A stretch of DNA of 14,381 nucleotides from Gallionellaceae bacterium (GTDB taxonomy: Bacteria > Pseudomonadota > Gammaproteobacteria > Burkholderiales > Gallionellaceae), in contig JAUSKS010000077.1 of the NCBI GenBank assembly GCA_030646595.1, positions 1-14,381 of the forward strand. Reading direction: 5' to 3'. The notes below the pieces were generated by a model. The model ran no database searches. It saw only the letters and a program-made list of their open reading frames with translations, and was not told the origin of the DNA. This document shows, in pieces, positions 1 through 14,381 of the stretch; within the stretch, counting starts at the first letter, position 1, and each line of letters starts with the position of its first letter. Both the position numbers and the translations under genes were made by a program.

Positions 1-2627
1 AGCGTAGGAGTATCGGTATCGAGACGAGAATACTTGAGCAAATCTTCGATGAGACTATCGAGATTTTTGGATGCAGTAATGATTTGCGTAATGCAAAATT
101 GTGCGCGCTCAGCCATCCCTTCCTTGTGGCGACGTTCCAACTCCTGTGCGTAGCCAGTAATGCCGCGCAGCGGCGCTTTAAGGTCGTGCGAAACGGTGTA
201 GGCAAAGCCCTTGAGCTCTTCGTTCTTGGCGCTGAGTTGGGTGGTACGCTCGATGACTTTTGATTCAAGTTCGTCATGTGACTGTTGCAGCGCCGCCTCA
301 ATTCGCCGATGCTCGGTAATATCCTGATTGGTCCCGACGACCCATTCGGCCTGACCTTGCGCGTTGGTACGTACTGTTTCCACCGCGCGGATCAAACGGT
401 ATTCCTCTTCCCCCTGCCGCCGAATGCGGAATTCCCGAATGCTGTGCCCGCATTGGCGCACCGTTTCCTGCAAAATTTGTTCCTGCTGGCTTAACTCCTC
501 TGGGCAGACGGCTGTACTCCACTGGCTGTACTCGACCAAACCATTGGCCGTCTGCGGGATACCATATATCAAAAACATCTGGGCATCCCAATGAATATTA
601 TTGTTTATAACATTCCATTCCCAAATACCCACCTCCGTTGCCTCTGTCGCCAGGCGTACGCGCTGCTCGCTGGCACGCAATTCTTCCGCCGCTTGTTGGC
701 GATGCAGGGCTTCCTGGCGCAGGGTTTCGTTGAGCGTCGCCAGTTCAGAGGTACGTTCCCGCACCCGTGTTTCCATCTCGTCATGCGCCTCGCGCAGCGC
801 AGCATCCACACGCTTGCGCTCGGTAATGTCGCGTCCTACGGCAAAAATAAGTCCTTCTTCGGCCAAGGGATAGGCAACCCAGGAAAGCCACTTGTAGGTA
901 CCATCTTTGCATACATAACGGTTATCAAAAAAATAAATGATCTTGCCGTCAACCAGCTCGCCAGCGGTATTCGTGGTTGCATCACGGTCATCCGGATGGA
1001 CAAACTCCAGATAGGGCCGGGCCAATAACTCAGCGGCTTTCCAGCCCAGTGTCTGCTCCCAGGCCGGATTCACCTGAATGAAATAACCATTGAAATTCGC
1101 GATGCCATATATGTCGAGGGAATAATTAAACATGCGGTCGCGTTCCCTTTCCGCCTGCTTGCGTCGCGAGATGTCCGCGGCCATGCCGAGAAATCCGGTA
1201 ATTTCACCATTTGCATTGCGCAATGCAGTTACCGACAGCAATACTGGAAGGCGTATGCCATCTTTGCGGATATATGTCCACTCATATTCGGCAGGCAGGT
1301 TATAGCGCGCCTTGGCAACAAATACTTCAAAGCCGGGTTCGACCATCACGCCAAATTCGGCCGATAACTCTTGTGCGCGTGCTACTACTTCAGACGGATC
1401 ATGCAGTATGGCTGGCGACTGTAAACCCACCACCTCCGCTGCTGTATAGCCCAGCATGCGCTCGGCAGCCTGATTAAAAGTTGTGATGATGCCATCTGGC
1501 GTCGTACTGATAATGGCATACGCAGCATTGTCCAGAATCGCGCGTTGCAATGCCATTGCCTTGCCCAATTTTTCTTCGGCAAGTTTTTTTTCGGTAACGT
1601 CACGCCCCACGGCAAAGATCAACTTTTCCTCGATCAGGGGATATGCCACCCAGGATATCCATTTATAGCTGCCATCCTTGCCACGGTAGCGGTTATCAAA
1701 CAGAAATAATTCCTTGCCATCGCGCAACGTGCCGGCCACATGGGTGGTTGCCTCCCTGTCATCCGGATGAACAAATTCCAGATAGGGAGTCGCCTGCATT
1801 TCAGCAGCAGTCCACCCTAGAAGATGTGTCCAGGCAGGATTAACCTGGGTGAAATAGCCATCGAAATTGGCTACGCAATAAATATCGAGGGCATAATTAA
1901 ACAAACGGTCACGTTCATGTTCGGCTTGCCTGCGCTGGGCAATGTTTTGCCGGATGTGCAGGGTGCTCCAGCCGAGAATGATAATTGCCAGCCCGCCCAG
2001 GCCGAGAATGACTAGCAAGGTATATTGGGCGCTGGCTTTTATTTGCCGGGTGCGTTCGGCCAACAACTGTTGTTCCTCGGTGTTCATATCCTTTAACACC
2101 ACTCGTATCTGGTCTGTCATGCGTTGGCCATATCCTTGCACGACAAATTTTTTTGCTGCTTCAAATCCCTGATTTTGGCGTATTGCGACCAATTGCTCGG
2201 CGTACTCGATGCGCTGTTTTACCAAAGATTCCAAATGGGGAACATATCGCTGCAGGCTGGGGTTGTCTGCTGTCATGTCGTGCAAGCGAGCAACCTCCGT
2301 TATTACCGTATCCCGCGCGGCAGAATAGGCATTAAGCAGTTTTGTGTCTTGCGTAATGACATAACCACGCAGCCTGTTTTGCAAATCAATTGCGGCATAT
2401 AACACCTGCTTGGTCTGGCTAATGATCTCGTGCGTGCGCGACCGCTGGTCAGCATCTGCCCTGACTTCCAGCAAACTACGCGCAGACAGAATGCTGACTG
2501 CAAGCAGCGCCAGGAAGGCCACCACAAAGGTGATATTGGCACTGCGCTCTAGCGACCCCTTTTCAGAAACCAGAGCGTGAGCTTTTTCAGGGCCAGTAAA
2601 CTGGTCTGAGATCAAGGTGGTGTTCAT
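1..2627 (-). CDS. CHASE3-like, multi-PAS membrane sensor histidine kinase (C-terminus cut by window edge)
   Basis: Inner-membrane sensor kinase expected to autophosphorylate and pass phosphate to a response regulator not in the window. The frame is open for 875 codons to the left edge. Visible order: cytoplasmic N-terminus; membrane segment about 31-49; extracytoplasmic helical region about 50-200 with the CHASE3-like stretch LRGYVIT at 86-92; second membrane segment about 203-221; PAS domains about 239-348, 362-490, 496-605 and 650-772; then HisKA with H-box SHDLKAPLRG and phospho-acceptor His814. Two similar coiled linkers (HDEMETRVRERTSEL at 615-629 and HDELESKVIERTTQL at 784-798) precede PAS4 and HisKA. 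The ATP-binding domain lies outside the window. PAS1 and PAS3 are near copies. The ATG at 2627 has no clear ribosome site and overlaps the stop of a short upstream ORF; an in-frame GTG at 2732 is an alternative start. The signal sensed is unknown. Confidence 0.9.
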   Translation of the reverse strand, partial: MNTTLISDQFTGPEKAHALVSEKGSLERSANITFVVAFLALLAVSILSARSLLEVRADADQRSRTHEIISQTKQVLYAAIDLQNRLRGYVITQDTKLLNAYSAARDTVITEVARLHDMTADNPSLQRYVPHLESLVKQRIEYAEQLVAIRQNQGFEAAKKFVVQGYGQRMTDQIRVVLKDMNTEEQQLLAERTRQIKASAQYTLLVILGLGGLAIIILGWSTLHIRQNIAQRRQAEHERDRLFNYALDIYCVANFDGYFTQVNPAWTHLLGWTAAEMQATPYLEFVHPDDREATTHVAGTLRDGKELFLFDNRYRGKDGSYKWISWVAYPLIEEKLIFAVGRDVTEKKLAEEKLGKAMALQRAILDNAAYAIISTTPDGIITTFNQAAERMLGYTAAEVVGLQSPAILHDPSEVVARAQELSAEFGVMVEPGFEVFVAKARYNLPAEYEWTYIRKDGIRLPVLLSVTALRNANGEITGFLGMAADISRRKQAERERDRMFNYSLDIYGIANFNGYFIQVNPAWEQTLGWKAAELLARPYLEFVHPDDRDATTNTAGELVDGKIIYFFDNRYVCKDGTYKWLSWVAYPLAEEGLIFAVGRDITERKRVDAALREAHDEMETRVRERTSELATLNETLRQEALHRQQAAEELRASEQRVRLATEATEVGIWEWNVINNNIHWDAQMFLIYGIPQTANGLVEYSQWSTAVCPEELSQQEQILQETVRQCGHSIREFRIRRQGEEEYRLIRAVETVRTNAQGQAEWVVGTNQDITEHRRIEAALQQSHDELESKVIERTTQLSAKNEELKGFAYTVSHDLKAPLRGITGYAQELERRHKEGMAERAQFCITQIITASKNLDSLIEDLLKYSRLDTDTPT
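813..1142 (-). repeat. PAS domain copy 2 of an internal duplication
   Basis: Encodes kinase residues 496-605, the partner of the copy at 1584-1913. The copies are separated by a different PAS domain (about residues 362-490), so this is not a simple tandem duplication. Differences cluster in the middle of the domain, where a PAS pocket would bind ligand or cofactor, so the two may have diverged in what they sense. That last point is inference. Confidence 0.85.
1584..1913 (-). repeat. PAS domain copy 1 of an internal duplication
   Basis: Encodes kinase residues 239-348. Aligned without gaps to residues 496-605, about 80 of 110 positions are identical by hand count. Shared blocks include QVNPAW, PYLEFVHPDDR, FDNRY, SWVAYPL and LIFAVGRD. 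The preceding residues (QAEHERDR against QAERERDR) match too, so the duplicated unit includes part of the linker. Confidence 0.85.
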
Positions 2628-2725
2628 TTTGGATAAGGTAGCGGGAAGCGGAGTAGTGGGTCGAGCGCAGCTCCAGCGAAACTGGAACGTCCACGTAGCA
2701 GCGTTTGGTCTATACGTAACGGCAT
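2624..2725 (-). CDS. Possible 33-residue ORF coupled to the sensor kinase
   Basis: ATG at 2725 is preceded by AGGGG (2732-2736) with a 6-base spacer, a better ribosome site than the kinase start has. The frame ends in TGA at 2626-2624, overlapping the kinase ATG as ATGA. It encodes a short basic, proline-rich peptide beginning MPLRIDQTLL and ending LRFPLPYPK, with no recognised family. It may be a leader that couples translation to the kinase. It may also be chance, since the kinase frame is itself open upstream to a GTG at 2732. Nothing beyond start, ribosome site and overlap supports it. Confidence 0.25.
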   Translation of the reverse strand: MPLRIDQTLLRGRSSFAGAALDPLLRFPLPYPK

Positions 2726-2848
2726 GCTGCACCCCTTTAACTTCTTGTTGAGTTAATGAAGAACATCAAGAGCAATCTCAAAGCCTGGGCAAGGATACTC
2801 TCAAATCATGCTATTAAGAATTCCTTTTTATGCAGCAGGAAAGCTTTA

Positions 2849-4435
2849 CTATTCCCATTCTATTGTGGCTGGTGGTTTACCGGATATATCGTACACCACG
2901 CGGTTAATGCCGCGCACTTCGTTGATGATGCGATTGGAAACTTTGGCCAGCAGTGCATGCGGCAATTCGGCCCAGTGTGCGGTCATGAAATCCTGCGTTT
3001 GCACGGCGCGTAATGCCACCACCCACTCATAGGTGCGACCATCGCCCATTACGCCCACTGATTTAACCGGCAGGAATACGACGAAGGCCTGCGAAGTTTT
3101 TTCGTACCACGAATTACCCGCTTCATCTTTAGTTGCGCGCAATTCTTCGATGAATATCGCATCGGCACGACGCAGCAGATCAGCATATTCTTTCTTCACT
3201 TCGCCCAATATGCGCACGCCCAAACCAGGGCCGGGGAAAGGATGGCGATACACCATATTGCGTGGCAAGCCCAGCGCCACGCCCAGTTCGCGCACTTCGT
3301 CCTTGAACAATTCACGCAGCGGCTCCAGCAATTTCAGATGCAAACTTTCCGGCAAGCCGCCGACGTTGTGGTGCGATTTAATGGTGTGCGCCTTTTTTGT
3401 TTTCGCGCCAGCGGATTCGATCACGTCGGGATAGATCGTTCCTTGTGCCAGCCATTTTGCTTGCGGCAATTTCTTGGCTTCGCGCTGAAATACTTCAACA
3501 AATTCGCGTCCGATTATTTTGCGCTTCTGCTCAGGGTCGGAGATACCAGTCAGGTGATGTAAAAATTCGGCACTGGCATCTACGTGTATCACTTTCATGT
3601 GCAGATGGCTGGCAAAGGTTGCCATCACTTGCTCGGCTTCGTGCAAACGCAGCAGCCCGTTATCCACGAACACGCAGGTCAGCTGGTCGCCGATAGCGCG
3701 ATGTATCAACGCCGCCGCCACCGAAGAATCCACGCCGCCAGACAAACCGAGGATCACTTCGTCCTTGCCCACCTGAGCGCGTATTTTTTCCACCGCCTCG
3801 CCTACATAGTCCGGCATGTTCCAGTCCTGTGCACAGCCGCAAATGTCATGCACAAATCGGCTCAACATGGCCTTGCCCTGATGGGTGTGCGTCACTTCGG
3901 GATGAAATTGCAGCGCGTAAAAATGTCGCGCTTCGTCTGCCATACCGGCAATAGGCGTCGTAGGATTGCTGGCAATGACCTTGAAACCGGGCGGCAGTTT
4001 GGTCACTTTGTCACCGTGACTCATCCACACATCAATCAAACCGTGGCCTTGCGCATTGCTCCTGTCCTGAATGTCGCGCAGCAATGCCGAGTGTCCCTGC
4101 GCACGTATCTCGGCATAGCCGAATTCGCGCACCAAGCCATTTTCAACCGCCCCGCCCAATTGCGCTGCCATCGTCTGCATGCCGTAGCAAATGCCCAGCA
4201 CGGGTACGCCCAGATCAAACACGGCCTGCGGCGCGCGCGGGGTATCGCCTTCGGTTACAGAATTGGGCCCGCCGGAGAGAATAATTCCGGTTGGCTGAAA
4301 ATCACGGATGAATTGATCGCTCACATCATAAGGATGCAATTCACAATAGACATGTGCTTCACGTACACGACGCGCGATCAGTTGGCTGTATTGCGAACCG
4401 AAGTCGAGGATGAGGATTTTTTTGTGGATTGTCAT
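2849..4435 (-). CDS. guaA: GMP synthase (glutamine-hydrolysing)
   Basis: Cytoplasmic enzyme that converts XMP, ATP and glutamine to GMP, the last step of guanine nucleotide synthesis. Its 528 residues match the usual length of about 525. The N-terminal class I glutamine amidotransferase domain (about 8-200) has the nucleophile elbow GICYGMQ with Cys83, and His178 and Glu180 in FHPE. The ATP-pyrophosphatase domain begins near 210 with the P-loop LSGGVDSS (231-238). The C-terminal dimerisation domain includes GPGLGVRI and ends KPPATIEWE. The ATG lies 6 bases after the endonuclease stop with only a weak ribosome site (GCGA region), so translation is probably coupled to the gene before it. In many proteobacteria guaA directly follows guaB; here two restriction-modification genes lie between them. 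No clear terminator follows the stop. Confidence 0.97.
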
Positions 4436-4441
4436 TTTTCG

Positions 4442-5392
4442 CTAGAGATATGGCCCCAAAAATCGGATACCATTAAAGTGAATAAGATGGGTCGGGTCAC
4501 TTGCACACCAGACCTCGGTTTCCCAAGCCACTAGTGCAAGAAATTTCCGAAAAATTTCGCCACGATCCGGGAATGCGGTGACATAGACGAGGCCCGCATT
4601 GGAGTCCTTGAAGACTTTGGCAAGCTCTGCGTGGCGGCCACCATCAACAGGGCCGCTACTGGTAACTGCTTCAATCAAAATCAGCCAGTTTTTTTCCCGG
4701 TAGTAGATTATGACATCGGGCATTTTTCCGTGCAGCTTAACTTTTACACCCAGCGTGGATAGCAGTATTTCATCAAAGTATCCCCACTTTTTCCCGGTAT
4801 CGCCCACGTACACAAGCTCTCCACCCGGCGCGAAAAATGATCCAAAATTTTCGATGATGGCGCGAATGAGATCAGAATGGCCACCCGCGCTCAGGGTGAT
4901 TTTTTTTTCTGTCTTTGTTTTTACCGGGATACGATGAAGGTCTCTTGCATGCGCATAGTGCGCTACCAGGGTTCCACGGGCTGCAAGGTAAGTTTCGAGG
5001 GAACGGTCCCAGGTCCTGGAACCAAATTGCCGTAAAAGTGCCAAGGCATGTTCTTCTACCTGATAACAGTTGCCTGAGCTATTGGTGACTCTGTCTGGTT
5101 TGTCGGGGTTATGCAACAGCAACCCTGCTGCTACGAGCTGTTTTACACTGTACTTGCGCACACTCTCGCGCGTGTTCTCGGCATAATTTCTATCCAATTG
5201 CTCACGCGCAAAATCAAGGATAGCGCGGATGCCCAGCATGGGATTCTGTGCCTCATGCCAGCGTCTCTTGGGCGGAAGATTTAATAGCGCCAGCAAGCAA
5301 ATCGCGGTGCGGTCATTAAGCTGCTCATTCGGCATGCCCAAGGCTTGAAGCACAGTTAATGCTTCAGCTATGCGCCGCACTTTTGTTGTCAT
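4442..5392 (-). CDS. BsuBI/PstI-type type II restriction endonuclease
   Basis: Predicted type II endonuclease that cuts unmethylated DNA, by family analogy at CTGCAG. The 316 residues are close to the size of BsuBI and PstI. The N-terminal half (about 1-150) resembles the helical N-terminal domain of this family. The C-terminal half carries the family core: VYVGDTGKK (194-202), MPDVIIYYREKNWLILIEAV (224-243) with acidic candidates Asp226 and Glu241, SSGPVDGGRHAEL (245-257) and YVTAFPDR (270-277). The Asp and Glu fit a PD-(D/E)xK-like site, but the exact catalytic set is inferred. Its ATG overlaps the methyltransferase stop (ATGA, 5389-5392), so the endonuclease is made after and probably coupled to the protective enzyme. 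The CTGCAG specificity is a family-based guess. Confidence 0.92.
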   Translation of the reverse strand: MTTKVRRIAEALTVLQALGMPNEQLNDRTAICLLALLNLPPKRRWHEAQNPMLGIRAILDFAREQLDRNYAENTRESVRKYSVKQLVAAGLLLHNPDKPDRVTNSSGNCYQVEEHALALLRQFGSRTWDRSLETYLAARGTLVAHYAHARDLHRIPVKTKTEKKITLSAGGHSDLIRAIIENFGSFFAPGGELVYVGDTGKKWGYFDEILLSTLGVKVKLHGKMPDVIIYYREKNWLILIEAVTSSGPVDGGRHAELAKVFKDSNAGLVYVTAFPDRGEIFRKFLALVAWETEVWCASDPTHLIHFNGIRFLGPYL

Positions 5393-6864
5393 GCTTCTTG
5401 CATCTCTGTAACCAAACGGTCAATTTCCGGCTGTTCCTGTGGCATATCCTTCGTTGCATTACCTAAAGCAATGAGCATGGCGCGGCTCGGATATTTCATC
5501 AGCCTGAGATCGGTTGCATTAACCTGAGTGTGGCCGTTAAAGCGGCGGAAGCATTCATCTACAGCAGTGGTATTGAGGAAGATGGCCAGGCCGCGCGCAA
5601 GCGCTTCCGGTAAGCCGCGTTTATTTTCGTGAAATACATTTAAATGATTTTCAAAACCGAGCATTTCGGCATCATTAAAAGATTTCGGCTGTACCACGCT
5701 TGCCATGATGCGCCGTTTTTCCTCTTTGGACGAAAAGCGACGAACCACACAATAGCTCCCCGTAGGGAATAGCCACTTTTCTGTTTCGCCATTACGCTGA
5801 ATTGCGTTGGGCTTTTTTATATCTATTTTTGGCCATTCCATAGTCTGGCCATTGAAGTGGATCGGGTAAAGCAAGGGCACTGTGCCCTTTTCCGGAAAAT
5901 TTCTCAGGTGACTCTTCAAACGAAAATCTACCACCGGGCCAGTGGATACCTGAATGCCGAGCTCCTCAAGTGTATGGTGTACCCCTGTGTTCAGCCCGAT
6001 TTCATCAATCGCCGATAAGGTGGGGATGTGAATGAAGCGCTCCGGGTCGTCGGCAAAAACGATGCGTCCGAATGGGTGGATATGCTCCACAAGATCAAGG
6101 AAACTGTCATCAGTTGAAGTCGTTATTTTTATTTCATTTTGCTGGCCGTCGCGCTCCAGCACGATGATAATATTTTCCTGCAGGACACTATCGTCCTTGA
6201 AAGCTTTATCGCGTGATTTAAACAGGTGTATTTGCCTGATTGCAGCTCGCTGCAAAATAAAACTGCGGAAAGGATGGTAATACGGCCCATTGCAAAAACT
6301 TCTGGGGATGATCGCTACAACCTGTCCACCAGGTGCCATCATGGCCAATGCTAAAGCCACAAAAGCGGAATATAGATTGACCGTTTCTATCCCTACCTGT
6401 CGCAACAAAGCACGGTGGCGAGAATTACTGTTTATCTTCTTATAGGGGGGATTAAGAATGGCATGAGAATAGCCTTTGTTGTTGCCGAACTGAATGCGAT
6501 TAACGGCTTCCTCAATAAAGTCGCCACCAATCATTTCATAGCCCAGGGGTATTTGTTCTGCGTAACTGGCAAATGTATGCGCTAAATCTGCATGCAGCAG
6601 ATGATCCAGTTCAAAGGCAGTAATTTCAACCTTGCTAAAAGCTAAATCTCCGGTCATGCACCGCTCAATAAAAGCACTGGAGAGCGAACCTATCCCGGCA
6701 CCCGCATCAAGTAAACGGCAATTTTTATGGCCAGTCGCATGAAACAAACCCGCCATATAGCGGGCTGTTCGTGCGGGCGTAAAAAACTGCCCAAGTTGCG
6801 CCTTCTTTTGCGCCGTGGTGTTTTTTGCAATATGTAATCTGGTTTTTTCGATTGCGATCAGCAA
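5389..6864 (-). CDS. Type II N6-adenine DNA methyltransferase, PstI/BsuBI type
   Basis: Protective partner of the adjacent endonuclease, transferring methyl from S-adenosylmethionine to adenine in the recognition site. Its 491 residues are near the length of M.BsuBI and M.PstI. KAQLGQFFTP (21-30) is a motif X-like segment, LLDAGAGIGS (51-60) the methyl-donor motif I, and NPPY (138-141) the catalytic motif IV of adenine methyltransferases. The C-terminal half (about 290-480) is the likely target-recognition region. The start is TTG, set by an optimal AAGGAGG (6872-6878) 7 bases upstream; no ATG is available there. It is first in the cassette, 91 bases after guaB, with a long hairpin between. 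No controller-protein gene was found beside it, so expression may rely on gua read-through, the hairpin, or a promoter I cannot identify. Confidence 0.93.
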   Translation of the reverse strand: MLIAIEKTRLHIAKNTTAQKKAQLGQFFTPARTARYMAGLFHATGHKNCRLLDAGAGIGSLSSAFIERCMTGDLAFSKVEITAFELDHLLHADLAHTFASYAEQIPLGYEMIGGDFIEEAVNRIQFGNNKGYSHAILNPPYKKINSNSRHRALLRQVGIETVNLYSAFVALALAMMAPGGQVVAIIPRSFCNGPYYHPFRSFILQRAAIRQIHLFKSRDKAFKDDSVLQENIIIVLERDGQQNEIKITTSTDDSFLDLVEHIHPFGRIVFADDPERFIHIPTLSAIDEIGLNTGVHHTLEELGIQVSTGPVVDFRLKSHLRNFPEKGTVPLLYPIHFNGQTMEWPKIDIKKPNAIQRNGETEKWLFPTGSYCVVRRFSSKEEKRRIMASVVQPKSFNDAEMLGFENHLNVFHENKRGLPEALARGLAIFLNTTAVDECFRRFNGHTQVNATDLRLMKYPSRAMLIALGNATKDMPQEQPEIDRLVTEMQEA

Positions 6865-6871
6865 TGAAACG

Positions 6872-6878
6872 CCTCCTT
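6872..6878 (-). promoter_or_regulatory. Consensus ribosome binding site of the methyltransferase
   Basis: AAGGAGG on the minus strand with a 7-base spacer to the TTG at 6864. It decides the unusual start. It lies 6 bases beyond the 3' arm of the long hairpin, so hairpin folding could affect ribosome access. Confidence 0.8.
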
Positions 6879-6884
6879 AAAAGC

Positions 6885-6957
6885 AGGATTCAGGATGCGG
6901 GATATGGGATGCAAAATCAAAGGCCGGTTTTTTCCTGCATCCCGCATCCTGAATCCT
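6885..6957. repeat. Inverted repeat with perfect 18-bp arms at the guaB/restriction-cassette junction
   Basis: Arm AGGATTCAGGATGCGGGA (6885-6902) is exactly complementary to TCCCGCATCCTGAATCCT (6940-6957), with a 37-base loop. Inside, GGGATGC (6906-6912) can compete for GCATCCC (6938-6944), giving an alternative fold. The right arm ends inside the guaB stop codon (6956-6958). On the minus-strand transcript the 3' arm is followed by GCTTTT, a short U-run, so weak termination or attenuation is possible. It could also be a mobile REP- or MITE-like unit. Which of these it is cannot be settled from one copy. Confidence 0.8.
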
Positions 6958-8416
6958 AGTCCACATGATAATTCGGCGCTTCCTTGGTGATCTGCACATC
7001 ATGCACATGGGACTCGCGTATACCCGCAGCGGTGATTTGCACAAACTCGGCCTTGCTGTGCATGGTGAGGATATCGGGGCTGCCCAGATAACCCATGCTG
7101 GCGCGCAAGCCGCCCATCAGTTGATGGATCACAGCCAGTACGCTGCCCTTGTAAGGTACGCGTCCTTCTACACCTTCCGGGACTAATTTTTCGTGGTTGT
7201 CTTCGTCGTCCTGAAAATAGCGGTCGCTGGAACCTTGTTGCATTGCGCCCAGGCTGCCCATGCCGCGATAGGATTTGTAGGAGCGCCCCTGAAATAATTC
7301 TACTTCGCCGGGTGCTTCTTCGGTACCCGCAAACAAGCCTCCCAGCATCACCACATGCGCGCCCGCAGCAATGGCCTTGGAGATGTCGCCGGAATAGCGC
7401 ACCCCGCCATCAGCAATCAGCGGCACACCGGAGCCGCGCAGTGCTTCAGCTACATTTTGAATGGCGGTAATCTGCGGCACACCGACACCAGCCACCATGC
7501 GCGTGGTGCAAATCGAGCCGGGCCCGATGCCGACCTTGACCCCATCCGCGCCATGTTCCAGCAGGGCCTTGGCCGCAGCGCCAGTGGCGATGTTGCCGCC
7601 TATCACGTCTACTCTGGGGAAATTTTTCTTGACCCAGCGCACACGGTCCAGCACACCTTGAGAATGACCATGTGCGGTATCCACTACCAGCACATCCACG
7701 CCGGCATCTATCAACAATGCAGCGCGCTCGTCCGTGCCTTCGCCCACACCGATGGCAGCGCCGACACGCAAGCGCCCCAGTTCATCCTTGCAGGCTTGCG
7801 GATGTTCGCTGGATTTTAAAATATCTTTTACAGTAATCAGGCCGCACAATTCGAATGTATCATTCACTACCAGCACACGCTCGATACGGTATTTGTGCAT
7901 CAAGGTGCGCGCTTCTTCACGGCTGGCATTTTCCTTGACCGTGATCAAGCGCTCACGCTTGGTCATGATGTTTTGTATGGGTTGATCGAGATTGCTTTCA
8001 AAGCGCAAATCACGATTGGTGACGATGCCAACTACTTTTCTCCCCTGCACCACCGGCAAACCGGAAATTTTATGCTGACGAGTAAGATTCAATACATCGC
8101 GTACCGTCATTTCGGCGGTAACTGTGATTGGGTCTTTCACCACCCCGCTCTCGAAACGCTTGACCTTGGACACTTCCAGCGCCTGTGCCTTGGCAGACAT
8201 ATTTTTATGCACAATACCAATCCCACCTTCCTGGGCCAGAACGATGGCCAGGCGCGCCTCGGTAACCGTATCCATGGCGGCAGATAACAGGGGAATATTC
8301 AGGGTGATATTGCGCGTAAGCTGCGTACGTAAACTGACATCACGCGGCAACACACTGGAGTGTGCCGGCACCAGCAGGACATCGTCAAAGGTTAGCGCTT
8401 TTTGGGTAATACGCAT
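6956..8416 (-). CDS. guaB: Inosine-5'-monophosphate dehydrogenase
   Basis: Oxidises IMP to XMP with NAD+, the committed step toward GMP, in the cytoplasm as a tetramer or octamer. The 486 residues match the family's usual length. The TIM-barrel catalytic domain is split by a CBS pair at about 95-205 ([25 protein letters not shown]). The loop GPGSICTTR (298-306) carries the catalytic Cys303. IADGGVR (334-340) and [10 protein letters not shown] (383-392) bind the substrate phosphate and form the active-site region, and EGRVPYKG (417-424) supplies Arg419 and Tyr422 on the flap. The ATG has a good ribosome site (AAGG 8424-8427, spacer 7). It is the likely first gene of a transcript guaB-methyltransferase-endonuclease-guaA. 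A structured repeat ends only 26 bases upstream, so promoter elements may lie within it; I could not fix a convincing -35/-10 pair. Confidence 0.97.
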
Positions 8417-8442
8417 GGACTCACCTTCTCCATATAAAAACT

Positions 8443-8544
8443 GTAGGGGCGTGATTTACCTCGAAGAGGTTCTTGTACCCTTGCGGGTATCACGCCTTGA
8501 TCTGTTCGTGTATTAAAGAAGGGCGCGATAAATCACGCCCCTAC
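8443..8544. repeat. Structured MITE/REP-like repeat upstream of guaB
   Basis: Terminal arms GTAGGGGCGTGATTTA (8443-8458) and TAAATCACGCCCCTAC (8529-8544) form a perfect 16-bp inverted repeat. Inside are smaller hairpins: ACCTC-GAA-GAGGT (8458-8470), TACCC-TTGC-GGGTA (8476-8489), GGCGTGAT (8448-8455) with ATCACGCC (8489-8496), and GGGCGCGAT (8521-8529) with ATCACGCCC (8532-8540, one wobble). It begins 8 bases after the unknown gene's stop and ends 26 bases before the guaB ATG, filling the gap. It may act as a terminator for the first gene, as part of the guaB leader, or be a non-autonomous mobile repeat. It encodes no protein I can see. Confidence 0.75.
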
Positions 8545-8551
8545 GTGCGGC

Positions 8552-9268
8552 TTATGTGCGGTCACTGCTCTTGCGCCCCATCACATAGATCAGGCATTCA
8601 AAAAACACTTCACACCAGGCTTGATCATTGCCTTTCAACGACTCCAGCAACTTTTTGACTTCCAGGGGCGGCCAGTTTGGATTAAAGGAAACCAGTTGTT
8701 CTACGGCGTATACCTTCAATAACGGCTGCAACTGGTCACCCAATTTATTTATTTCCTTGAGCATCAGCGCCAAGTCTTTGTCCGAATCAAGCTCGGCGGT
8801 TAGATCGCCATACATTTTGGGATTATGCTTGGCATATTCCACAAAATGACTAAGCAGGAAAAAAAACTGGCTTTTGCTATTTTCGGTGACCGGGTCGCCC
8901 AGCAAAAATGGCATAGGCATCAATTCCAGCCAATAATATTGCAGCTTGGGATTGCGGTGCTTGGTTACACCGATATAGCCGTTCCGGGCTTTGGCACGCT
9001 GCAGACAATCGTCCAATATCAGCTTGTCAGAAGAACGAGTGGCTATGTTGGGGTTGCCCAGTACGTCCGGCTTGACCAGAAAAAACTTGGGGAAATCGTC
9101 AAACAGCTTGCCGGAATGCTGGTGCATCCGGTAATAGGCGGTAAACAGCCTCAGCACATGACTCTGGTTTTGGTCAGTGCGGTAATATTCTGGATTGACG
9201 CCCGCCTCGGCTGGGGTGTGCGACATGTTATTGGCCCTAACTTGAGCTTGGTTTTCTACTTCCGTCAT
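8552..9268 (-). CDS. Conserved-looking protein of unknown function, 238 residues
   Basis: I do not recognise this family. The frame encodes a soluble-looking protein with no signal peptide or clear membrane span. A polar N-terminus (1-35) is followed by an aromatic-rich region (HVLRLFTAYYRMHQH, KLFDDFPKFFLV), a segment with YYWLELMPMPFLLG (111-124), and a mostly helical C-terminal half (about 130-230) ending CLIYVMGRK plus a charged tail. The ATG at 9268 has AGGG close upstream. An in-frame ATG at 9226, preceded by AGGG at 8 bases, would remove 14 residues and is about equally plausible. It is upstream of and collinear with guaB, 135 bases away, but the structured repeat between them argues against a simple operon. 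It is divergent from the DUF4124 gene across a 145-base gap. Ordinary codon use and length support a real gene; function is open. Confidence 0.75.
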   Translation of the reverse strand: MTEVENQAQVRANNMSHTPAEAGVNPEYYRTDQNQSHVLRLFTAYYRMHQHSGKLFDDFPKFFLVKPDVLGNPNIATRSSDKLILDDCLQRAKARNGYIGVTKHRNPKLQYYWLELMPMPFLLGDPVTENSKSQFFFLLSHFVEYAKHNPKMYGDLTAELDSDKDLALMLKEINKLGDQLQPLLKVYAVEQLVSFNPNWPPLEVKKLLESLKGNDQAWCEVFFECLIYVMGRKSSDRT

Positions 9269-9413
9269 TATGCCCTATCCCCAAGGATTATTGCACTCTG
9301 ATTTCGCAATTTGTCAGTGCTTAAAATTTGCCAAGTTTGCATCATGCCAGCCGCTAAGGTACATTAAAACCTGGGAACGGCCAGTTTTTACAACTGTCGT
9401 GAAAGGAATGAAG

Positions 9414-9890
9414 ATGAAATATGAGTTACCAATTCACCTGCTACTGCTTGGCCTGGTCAGCTTCAGCGCCTACAGTGCGGTCAACAAATGGGTGGATGAT
9501 AAGGGTCAGGTACACTATTCCGATCAGCCGCCTCCTGCCGATACCCGCGCCACTACGCTAATCAATATATCCACCGCCTCTGACGTCCCGGCCAGCGGTG
9601 TCTCCGCCAGTGGTGTTTCTGCGCCCAAATCCGTAGCTGAACGCGAGGCAGAATATAAAAAAGCCCAGAAAGCCAAAGCCGACGCCGAACGTCAGACTGC
9701 CAAACAAAAAGATGCAGACACCGCCAAACAGAAATATTGCGAGGACTTGCGGAACAATCTGAAATTGATAGAAGACAGTGGCCGCATCGCCGCTTATGAT
9801 GCCAAGGGAGAGCGTTATTATCTGGATGATGCTGCACGCCAGCAACGCATAGAAACAGTTCGTCAGTCTTTGCAAACCAATTGCAACTAA
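9414..9890 (+). CDS. Secreted DUF4124-domain protein
   Basis: Small exported protein of 158 residues. A Sec signal peptide covers about 1-22 (basic MKYE, hydrophobic LLLLGLVSFSAYSA) with likely cleavage after AYSA. The mature start NKWVDDKGQVHYSDQPP (24-40) is the DUF4124 signature, a small beta-rich envelope domain common in beta- and gammaproteobacteria with no settled function. Then come a low-complexity linker with the repeat SGVSASGVSAP (two 15-base direct repeats at 9591-9605 and 9606-9620), a charged Ala/Lys/Glu helix (about 73-108), and a C-terminal segment with Cys109 and Cys157 that could form a disulphide. I chose ATG 9414 because AAAGGA (9402-9407) lies 6 bases before it; ATG 9408 abuts that site directly. 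The stop overlaps the end of smc, which runs the other way, leaving no room for a separate terminator. Confidence 0.88.
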   Translation: MKYELPIHLLLLGLVSFSAYSAVNKWVDDKGQVHYSDQPPPADTRATTLINISTASDVPASGVSASGVSAPKSVAEREAEYKKAQKAKADAERQTAKQKDADTAKQKYCEDLRNNLKLIEDSGRIAAYDAKGERYYLDDAARQQRIETVRQSLQTNCN

Positions 9891-14139: not shown

Positions 14140-14381
14140 ATGGATGCCTTCACCTATAGCTATACGCGCCAAAATTTTGCTGACGTAATGCGCCAGGTCA
14201 ATGAAGACCACGTACCTGTGGTCGTTACCAGCCAGCGCGGAAAACCTGTTGTCATCATGTCTCTGGACGATTTTCACGCGCTGGAGGAAACGGCTTATCT
14301 GCTACGTAACCCAAAAGGCGCGAAACGTCTGATGGAGGCGGTTGAGCAACTGCGCAACGGCAATGGCGAGATCAAGAAGCT
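14140..14381 (+). CDS. yefM: YefM-type antitoxin (Phd/YefM family), cut by window edge
   Basis: Antitoxin that binds and neutralises a YoeB-type ribosome-dependent mRNA interferase and represses its own operon. Eighty complete codons are visible before the right edge, with no stop yet; E. coli YefM has a similar length, so little is missing. The N-terminal DNA-binding fold has YSYTRQNFADVMRQVNEDH (6-24) and the strand PVVVTSQRGKPVVIMS (26-41). The YefM signature LEETAYLLRNP follows at 48-58, then the toxin-binding helical tail AKRLMEAVEQL (61-71). The ATG follows a GGAG (14123-14126) at a long 13-base spacing. The toxin gene should start just beyond the edge but is not visible. Confidence 0.9.
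   Translation, partial: MDAFTYSYTRQNFADVMRQVNEDHVPVVVTSQRGKPVVIMSLDDFHALEETAYLLRNPKGAKRLMEAVEQLRNGNGEIKK

Follow-up and report, generated by a model that had tools for sequence, protein, structure and literature searches.

We describe herein a PstI/BsuBI-type restriction-modification pair that lies between the purine genes guaB and guaA of a Gallionellaceae bacterium. In our estimate (a probability of about 0.75), a compact pair made up of the genes for a methyltransferase (M) and an endonuclease (R) alone was inserted, in one lineage only of those examined, between the hairpin at the end of guaB and the start of guaA, left the gua row intact, and is expressed by readthrough. The sites are empty in relatives, the placement is exact, a kindred R occurs in a second housekeeping gene row (prmB-hpnC), and M and R differ in their histories; these points are direct observations. 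The enzymes are known and their placement is unusual: a known system has been inserted precisely, and in one lineage, into a purine gene row.

The window (the whole stretch of DNA analysed, 14,381 nucleotides) carries guaB, M, R and guaA all on the minus strand, and the gaps of 91, -4 and 6 nt given in the original prediction are exact in the ORF listing. Also in that listing, guaB (6956-8416, minus strand) encodes an IMP dehydrogenase (TIGR01302, 6.6e-192; PF00478, 5.4e-164), and guaA (2849-4435, minus) encodes a glutamine-hydrolysing GMP synthase (NF000848, 4.7e-248). M (5389-6864, minus) is an adenine-specific DNA methyltransferase of PstI/BsuBI systems with an Eco57I domain and a TTG start. 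It matches PF07669 (4e-11, Pfam) and the PADLOC profile MTase_II (2.4e-197), and its translation contains the sequence NPPY, which we take to be the catalytic motif of adenine methyltransferases. Profile match and translation thus agree that such an enzyme adjoins R. R (4442-5392, minus), whose start overlaps the stop codon of M by 4 nt, is a type II endonuclease of the BsuBI/PstI family and is full-length for both domains, PF17728 (4.5e-46, residues 6-143) and PF06616 (1.1e-58, residues 155-308 of 316). A sequence search found a sole solved relative, SdaI (2ixs; 4.6e-62), which aligns with residues 9-315 of the 316 of R. SdaI cuts CCTGCAGG.

The insert is barely more than M and R, and is placed after a hairpin at the guaB stop codon. 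At its 5' edge, 20 nt between hairpin and M (6865-6884, minus) contain the Shine-Dalgarno sequence AAGGAGG. The TTG start of M is plausible, if unproven, since AAGGAGG precedes it and most homologous methyltransferases of the family align from residue 1-8. At the other end, only 6 nt separate the stop codon of R from the ATG of guaA (4436-4441, minus), with no Shine-Dalgarno sequence among them.

The hairpin occupies most of the 91-bp gap (6885-6957, no strand assigned). Repeat search and folding define it as a perfect 19-nt inverted repeat with arms at 6885-6903 and 6939-6957, the second of which overlaps the guaB stop codon; the arms are composed of degenerate tandem heptamers (window 6880-6962). 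As RNA, it has a folding energy of -46.8 kcal/mol (z -3.4), which none of 200 shuffles equalled, and a stem of 20 bp followed by GCUUUU. Similar hairpins occur in the same place in four relatives (L024, L028, L355 and L372). In the genome itself, the arm motif has nine matches at up to 2 mismatches, two of which are this very repeat, and the reversed control has none. A scan of the genome's own contigs for 7-nt tracts yielded three under a strict setting and 19 under a looser one, five of the 19 being N contigs; the looser scan gave 6-9 tracts (again five N) at lags of 8, 10, 11 and 13, and 20-28 at lags of 6, 9, 12 and 15, which coding periodicity explains. Upstream of guaB lies another inverted repeat (window 8443-8544; 21 nt, 90%).

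The 20-bp stem of the guaB-M hairpin and the GCUUUU that follows could terminate or attenuate transcription between guaB and M, so M, R and guaA might form a separate unit, in which the hairpin ends guaB transcripts, an unrecognised promoter drives the three genes, and the pair is a mere neighbour and no operon passenger. The usual layout of the junction speaks for such a boundary: among relatives' guaB-guaA spacers of 60-300 bp, inverted repeats score above every one of 30 mononucleotide shuffles in 53 of 75 (and in 70 of the 98 relatives' spacers overall), so the hairpin may mark the end of a unit. On the contrary, no sigma-70-like promoter was found in the 91-bp gap (over 2500-9500, two such sites were seen against 7.3 expected), no terminator-like site was listed there by a search whose loop limit of 8 excludes the guaB-M hairpin, and the kindred pair in the prmB-hpnC row has only 3 or 5 nt in front of M, which leaves no intergenic room for a promoter. 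We therefore regard a separate unit as unlikely, and M and R are probably made by readthrough from guaB, as judged from the promoter-like sites and spacings; the hairpin may dampen that readthrough.

In the mechanism that we favour, a PstI/BsuBI-type M-R pair would have inserted between the heptamer-repeat hairpin and the guaA start without bringing a recognisable promoter, and would owe its transcription to polymerase reading on from guaB through the hairpin. M would be translated from its own Shine-Dalgarno sequence and R through coupling where the two genes overlap, with guaA next in line. The pair would act as an ordinary restriction-modification system of the CTGCAG type, a specificity suggested by the family, and its loss might be resisted both by post-segregational killing and by the risk that an imprecise deletion poses to guaA.

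It had also been proposed that guaA may depend on translation of the endonuclease. This proposal is weakened by the relatives: a Shine-Dalgarno-like 4-mer at -20 to -4 of guaA (starts picked by script) is missing from all 109 relatives, as it is from the window. The tight R-guaA junction therefore does not demonstrate that guaA depends on R.

Evidence for insertion comes from guaA loci with upstream sequence in these 109 relatives, namely 108 Gallionellaceae (drawn from 140 family genomes with a guaA match, the window's own left out) and G060, an outgroup at the level of the order. In 106 of the 109, guaB is the gene immediately upstream of guaA, with a gap of 38-787 bp (median 103); the exceptions are G016, with groEL and other genes upstream, G492, and G312, where the contig ends. 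Neither M nor R was found in any of the 109 stretches (E 1e-3). The four-gene order, which would have pointed to an old arrangement had relatives shared it, was sought in the same loci and not found. Near related R genes in GTDB, gua genes were found in none of the 80 best of 576 confirmed stretches, whose flanks are at most 5 kb and in many cases shorter. The comparison of the guaB-guaA interval thus supports the entry of a PstI-like pair into an existing gua row; cotranscription of the four genes, constant expression of the pair and a cost of its loss are predicted. Among the sampled genomes, the gua placement is specific to the lineage of this genome.

The closest comparison is with G011, the genome of the same genus with the best guaA score. 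Its gene order, guaA-guaB-ORF238-DUF4124-smc-queF, is that of the window minus the pair, with partial matches to a histidine kinase beyond guaA, and its guaA and guaB are 92-93% identical to those of the window. This bears on a possible assembly error, in which a restriction-modification fragment would have been joined wrongly to the gua row. The window corresponds to one entire contig (14.4 kb) of an assembly in 333 contigs that is 83.85% complete, and the gua placement is known from this one genome, with no second example among those examined, as a misjoin would have it. Such an artefact is nevertheless very improbable: both flanks show the stated identity to G011 in a collinear neighbourhood, the junctions are gene-precise, and the assembly holds a single guaA match at E <= 1e-80.

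The guaB-guaA junction is, to judge from the spacers of relatives, a recurrent landing site. Spacers exceed 300 bp in 23 of 106 relatives, and 19 of these 23 bear, as read from their translations, the four-helix-bundle signature of the 23S-IVP type. Four of the 19 ORFs were tested against profiles and all match 23S_rRNA_IVP / TIGR02436; three of the signature spacers hold only 72-85 open residues, and one has no ORF closed inside the spacer. Of the other four long spacers, one holds a clan-AA aspartic-protease-like ORF, one (in the outgroup G060) a SIMPL ORF and one a 212-aa ORF with no match, whereas the last lacks any long ORF. In most cases, the IVP-type signature sits between inverted heptamer-repeat arms and looks like a recurrent small element (for example, L012:1124-1480, L326:200-559, L299:101-475 and L297:4577-4942). 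A period of 7 nt is widespread in the junction: in the 99 spacers that measure 60 bp or more (98 relatives and the window), it is the best of the lags 4-12 in 80, against 12 after shuffling, and the pooled lag-7 z is 43.6, with heptamer units that vary between genomes. Because the spacers share ancestry, these counts do not represent independent events. The heptamer-repeat hairpin is probably an ancestral type of spacer.

A kindred pair was found elsewhere in the family. Among 158 genomes searched for R, 20 have a match, and in eight the subclade of the window R is present at 72-76% identity. In seven of these (G027, G032, G443, G468, G471, G482 and G523), the kindred R, accompanied by a different M, lies between prmB and hpnC in the row dapE-prmB-hpnC-hpnD (gene names confirmed on L038 with NCBIfam); the eighth, G008, has two restriction-modification systems, neither in such a row. 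The pair in the prmB-hpnC row resembles that of the window in R, in the order M-R, and in being a gene-only insertion in a housekeeping row, and differs in the row and in M, which is about 49-51% identical and of another lineage. From the prmB stop to the M start there are 3 nt in six loci and 5 nt in G471, and from R to the hpnC start 6-25 nt. Among twelve prmB-hpnC junctions without the pair, nine measure -1 to 6 nt, two have longer spacers (G507 and G030), and in one (L212) the stop is unclear. Out of 30 hpnC loci fetched, a subset of the 139 genomes in which hpnC was found, three are occupied, 13 have prmB and neither M nor R, and 14 have no prmB in the flank.

Decay is visible at this second site. 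M is kept without an intact R in three further genomes. In G474 and G496, a 194-aa ORF (L177:3821-4405 and L178:5517-6101) with a weak likeness to DUF429, below the Pfam cut-off, stands in place of most of R, of which a tail of 41 residues remains; in G506, M is kept and an R match is absent. In G460, M spans two reading frames and shares a contig with hpnC, from which it lies about 2.5 kb away; in G020, the contig ends within M. A 25-residue stretch between recX and queF in G442 (L179:5033-5107), with stops nearby, resembles an R tail, a weak and doubtful match. That the pair goes far back in the family and was lost from almost every relative, instead of being gained here, might be argued from the spread of the R subclade in the family and from the remnants in G474, G496 and, doubtfully, G442, yet these lie at prmB-hpnC or recX-queF with none at gua, and the 109 empty gua stretches make this reading very unlikely.

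Phylogenies of M and R were built from 111 pairs and then from 42 pairs (39 different). In the R tree, the window-type, hpn-site and one G008 endonuclease form one clade (support 1.0 / 100), a distinct long-branch subclade whose members go with two or more lineages of M. In the M tree, the window type falls among generic methyltransferases, the hpn-site type groups with L064/L087/L183 (0.998 / 98), and the G008 enzyme stands apart. An M tree forced to join the hpn-site type, the window type and L064/L087/L183 was rejected (p-AU 1.2e-11), as was an R tree that united the window type with the group of Gallionella-palsa type and its relatives (p-AU 1.8e-5). Both values are optimistic, since the groupings were chosen once the first tree had been built, and support for the window-type groups of M and of R is itself weak (31-66). 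By these trees, the two genes differ in history, and the conflict lies between the window-type pairs, the hpn-site pairs and one pair of G008. A recent chimera was considered for the window pair itself and rejected: in database clusters, an R of 76-89% identity goes together with an M of 67-80% (10 pairs, matched by hand through equal length of the longest contig, so that M and R possibly do not share a contig), and the window-type pairing is therefore older.

These findings suggest a broader, still tentative idea, to which we give somewhat less than even odds. The PstI-type subclade may consist of operon passengers, that is, bare promoterless M-R pairs that settled at the starts of housekeeping genes (at least two independent times in one family), were long kept, swapped M, and decayed R-first to M-only remnants, with an unrelated ORF replacing most of R in two genomes. 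Such seating is no general habit of the PstI-type family, as only eight of 76 pairs show it. In that survey of 94 loci, 76 had enough flank; both neighbours, taken as the longest ORFs only, were co-directional in 37, and both gaps were at most 60 bp in the eight, namely six hpn-site loci, L071 and L076. Some loci duplicate one record, and the hpn-site locus L176 failed the cut.

The pair is like known PstI/BsuBI systems (PF06616 and PF17728 with an Eco57I-type M) in both proteins, in the order M then R, and in the single direction. It differs from them in its position between two purine genes, 6 nt from the next, and in an R subclade that goes with more than one M lineage. On entering a host, a type II system has to make M ahead of R, and many such systems come with promoters or a controller gene (cf. 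the review PMC3874152). Inspection of the ORF listing by eye revealed no controller-like ORF next to M-R. A limited literature search, covering few subscription papers, found no description of restriction-modification genes in guaB-guaA or prmB-hpnC rows. Operon-seated kin with exchanged M partners lift the case above routine. A pair that lives on host operon transcription, with two placements and swapped M, would make the establishment of such systems testable, and likewise whether embedding slows loss and how tolerant R is of foreign methyltransferases that recognise its target.

Restriction-modification systems are reported to move by insertion sequence (IS), plasmid or long target duplication (PMC3031569). 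The window pair shares with these a chromosomal insertion, and differs in having no IS, transposase or long border duplication: nine window ORFs searched gave no match to an IS or transposase, and no long direct repeat or duplication was found at the insert borders within 2500-9500. Generic relatives of R matched 149 of 72,556 plasmid records (58% identity in the best) and 3 of 50,697 phage records. Composition does not clearly mark the pair as foreign or as recently transferred. The GC content is 0.47 for M and 0.50 for R, against 0.55 for guaB, 0.54 for guaA and 0.57 for smc, with a neighbour (ORF238) at 0.48; codon-usage distances of 4.83 (M) and 5.99 (R) lie within the neighbours' range of 4.17-6.25.

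By analogy with the family, the pair would cut and methylate CTGCAG. This hexamer is scarce in a sample of 55 contigs of the genome (393,305 bases in total, including five contigs of 14,255 bases that read as N), being seen 61 times against 196 expected (ratio 0.31), the second lowest z of 64 palindromes. Its avoidance was considered as proof of the pair's activity and set aside: the ratio is also low in relatives' loci (0.40 and 0.44, small sets), so the scarcity is no argument for this pair in particular. At the far end of the window, an ORF for a YefM/Phd-type antitoxin (14140-14379; TIGR01552, above cut-off) runs to the contig end.
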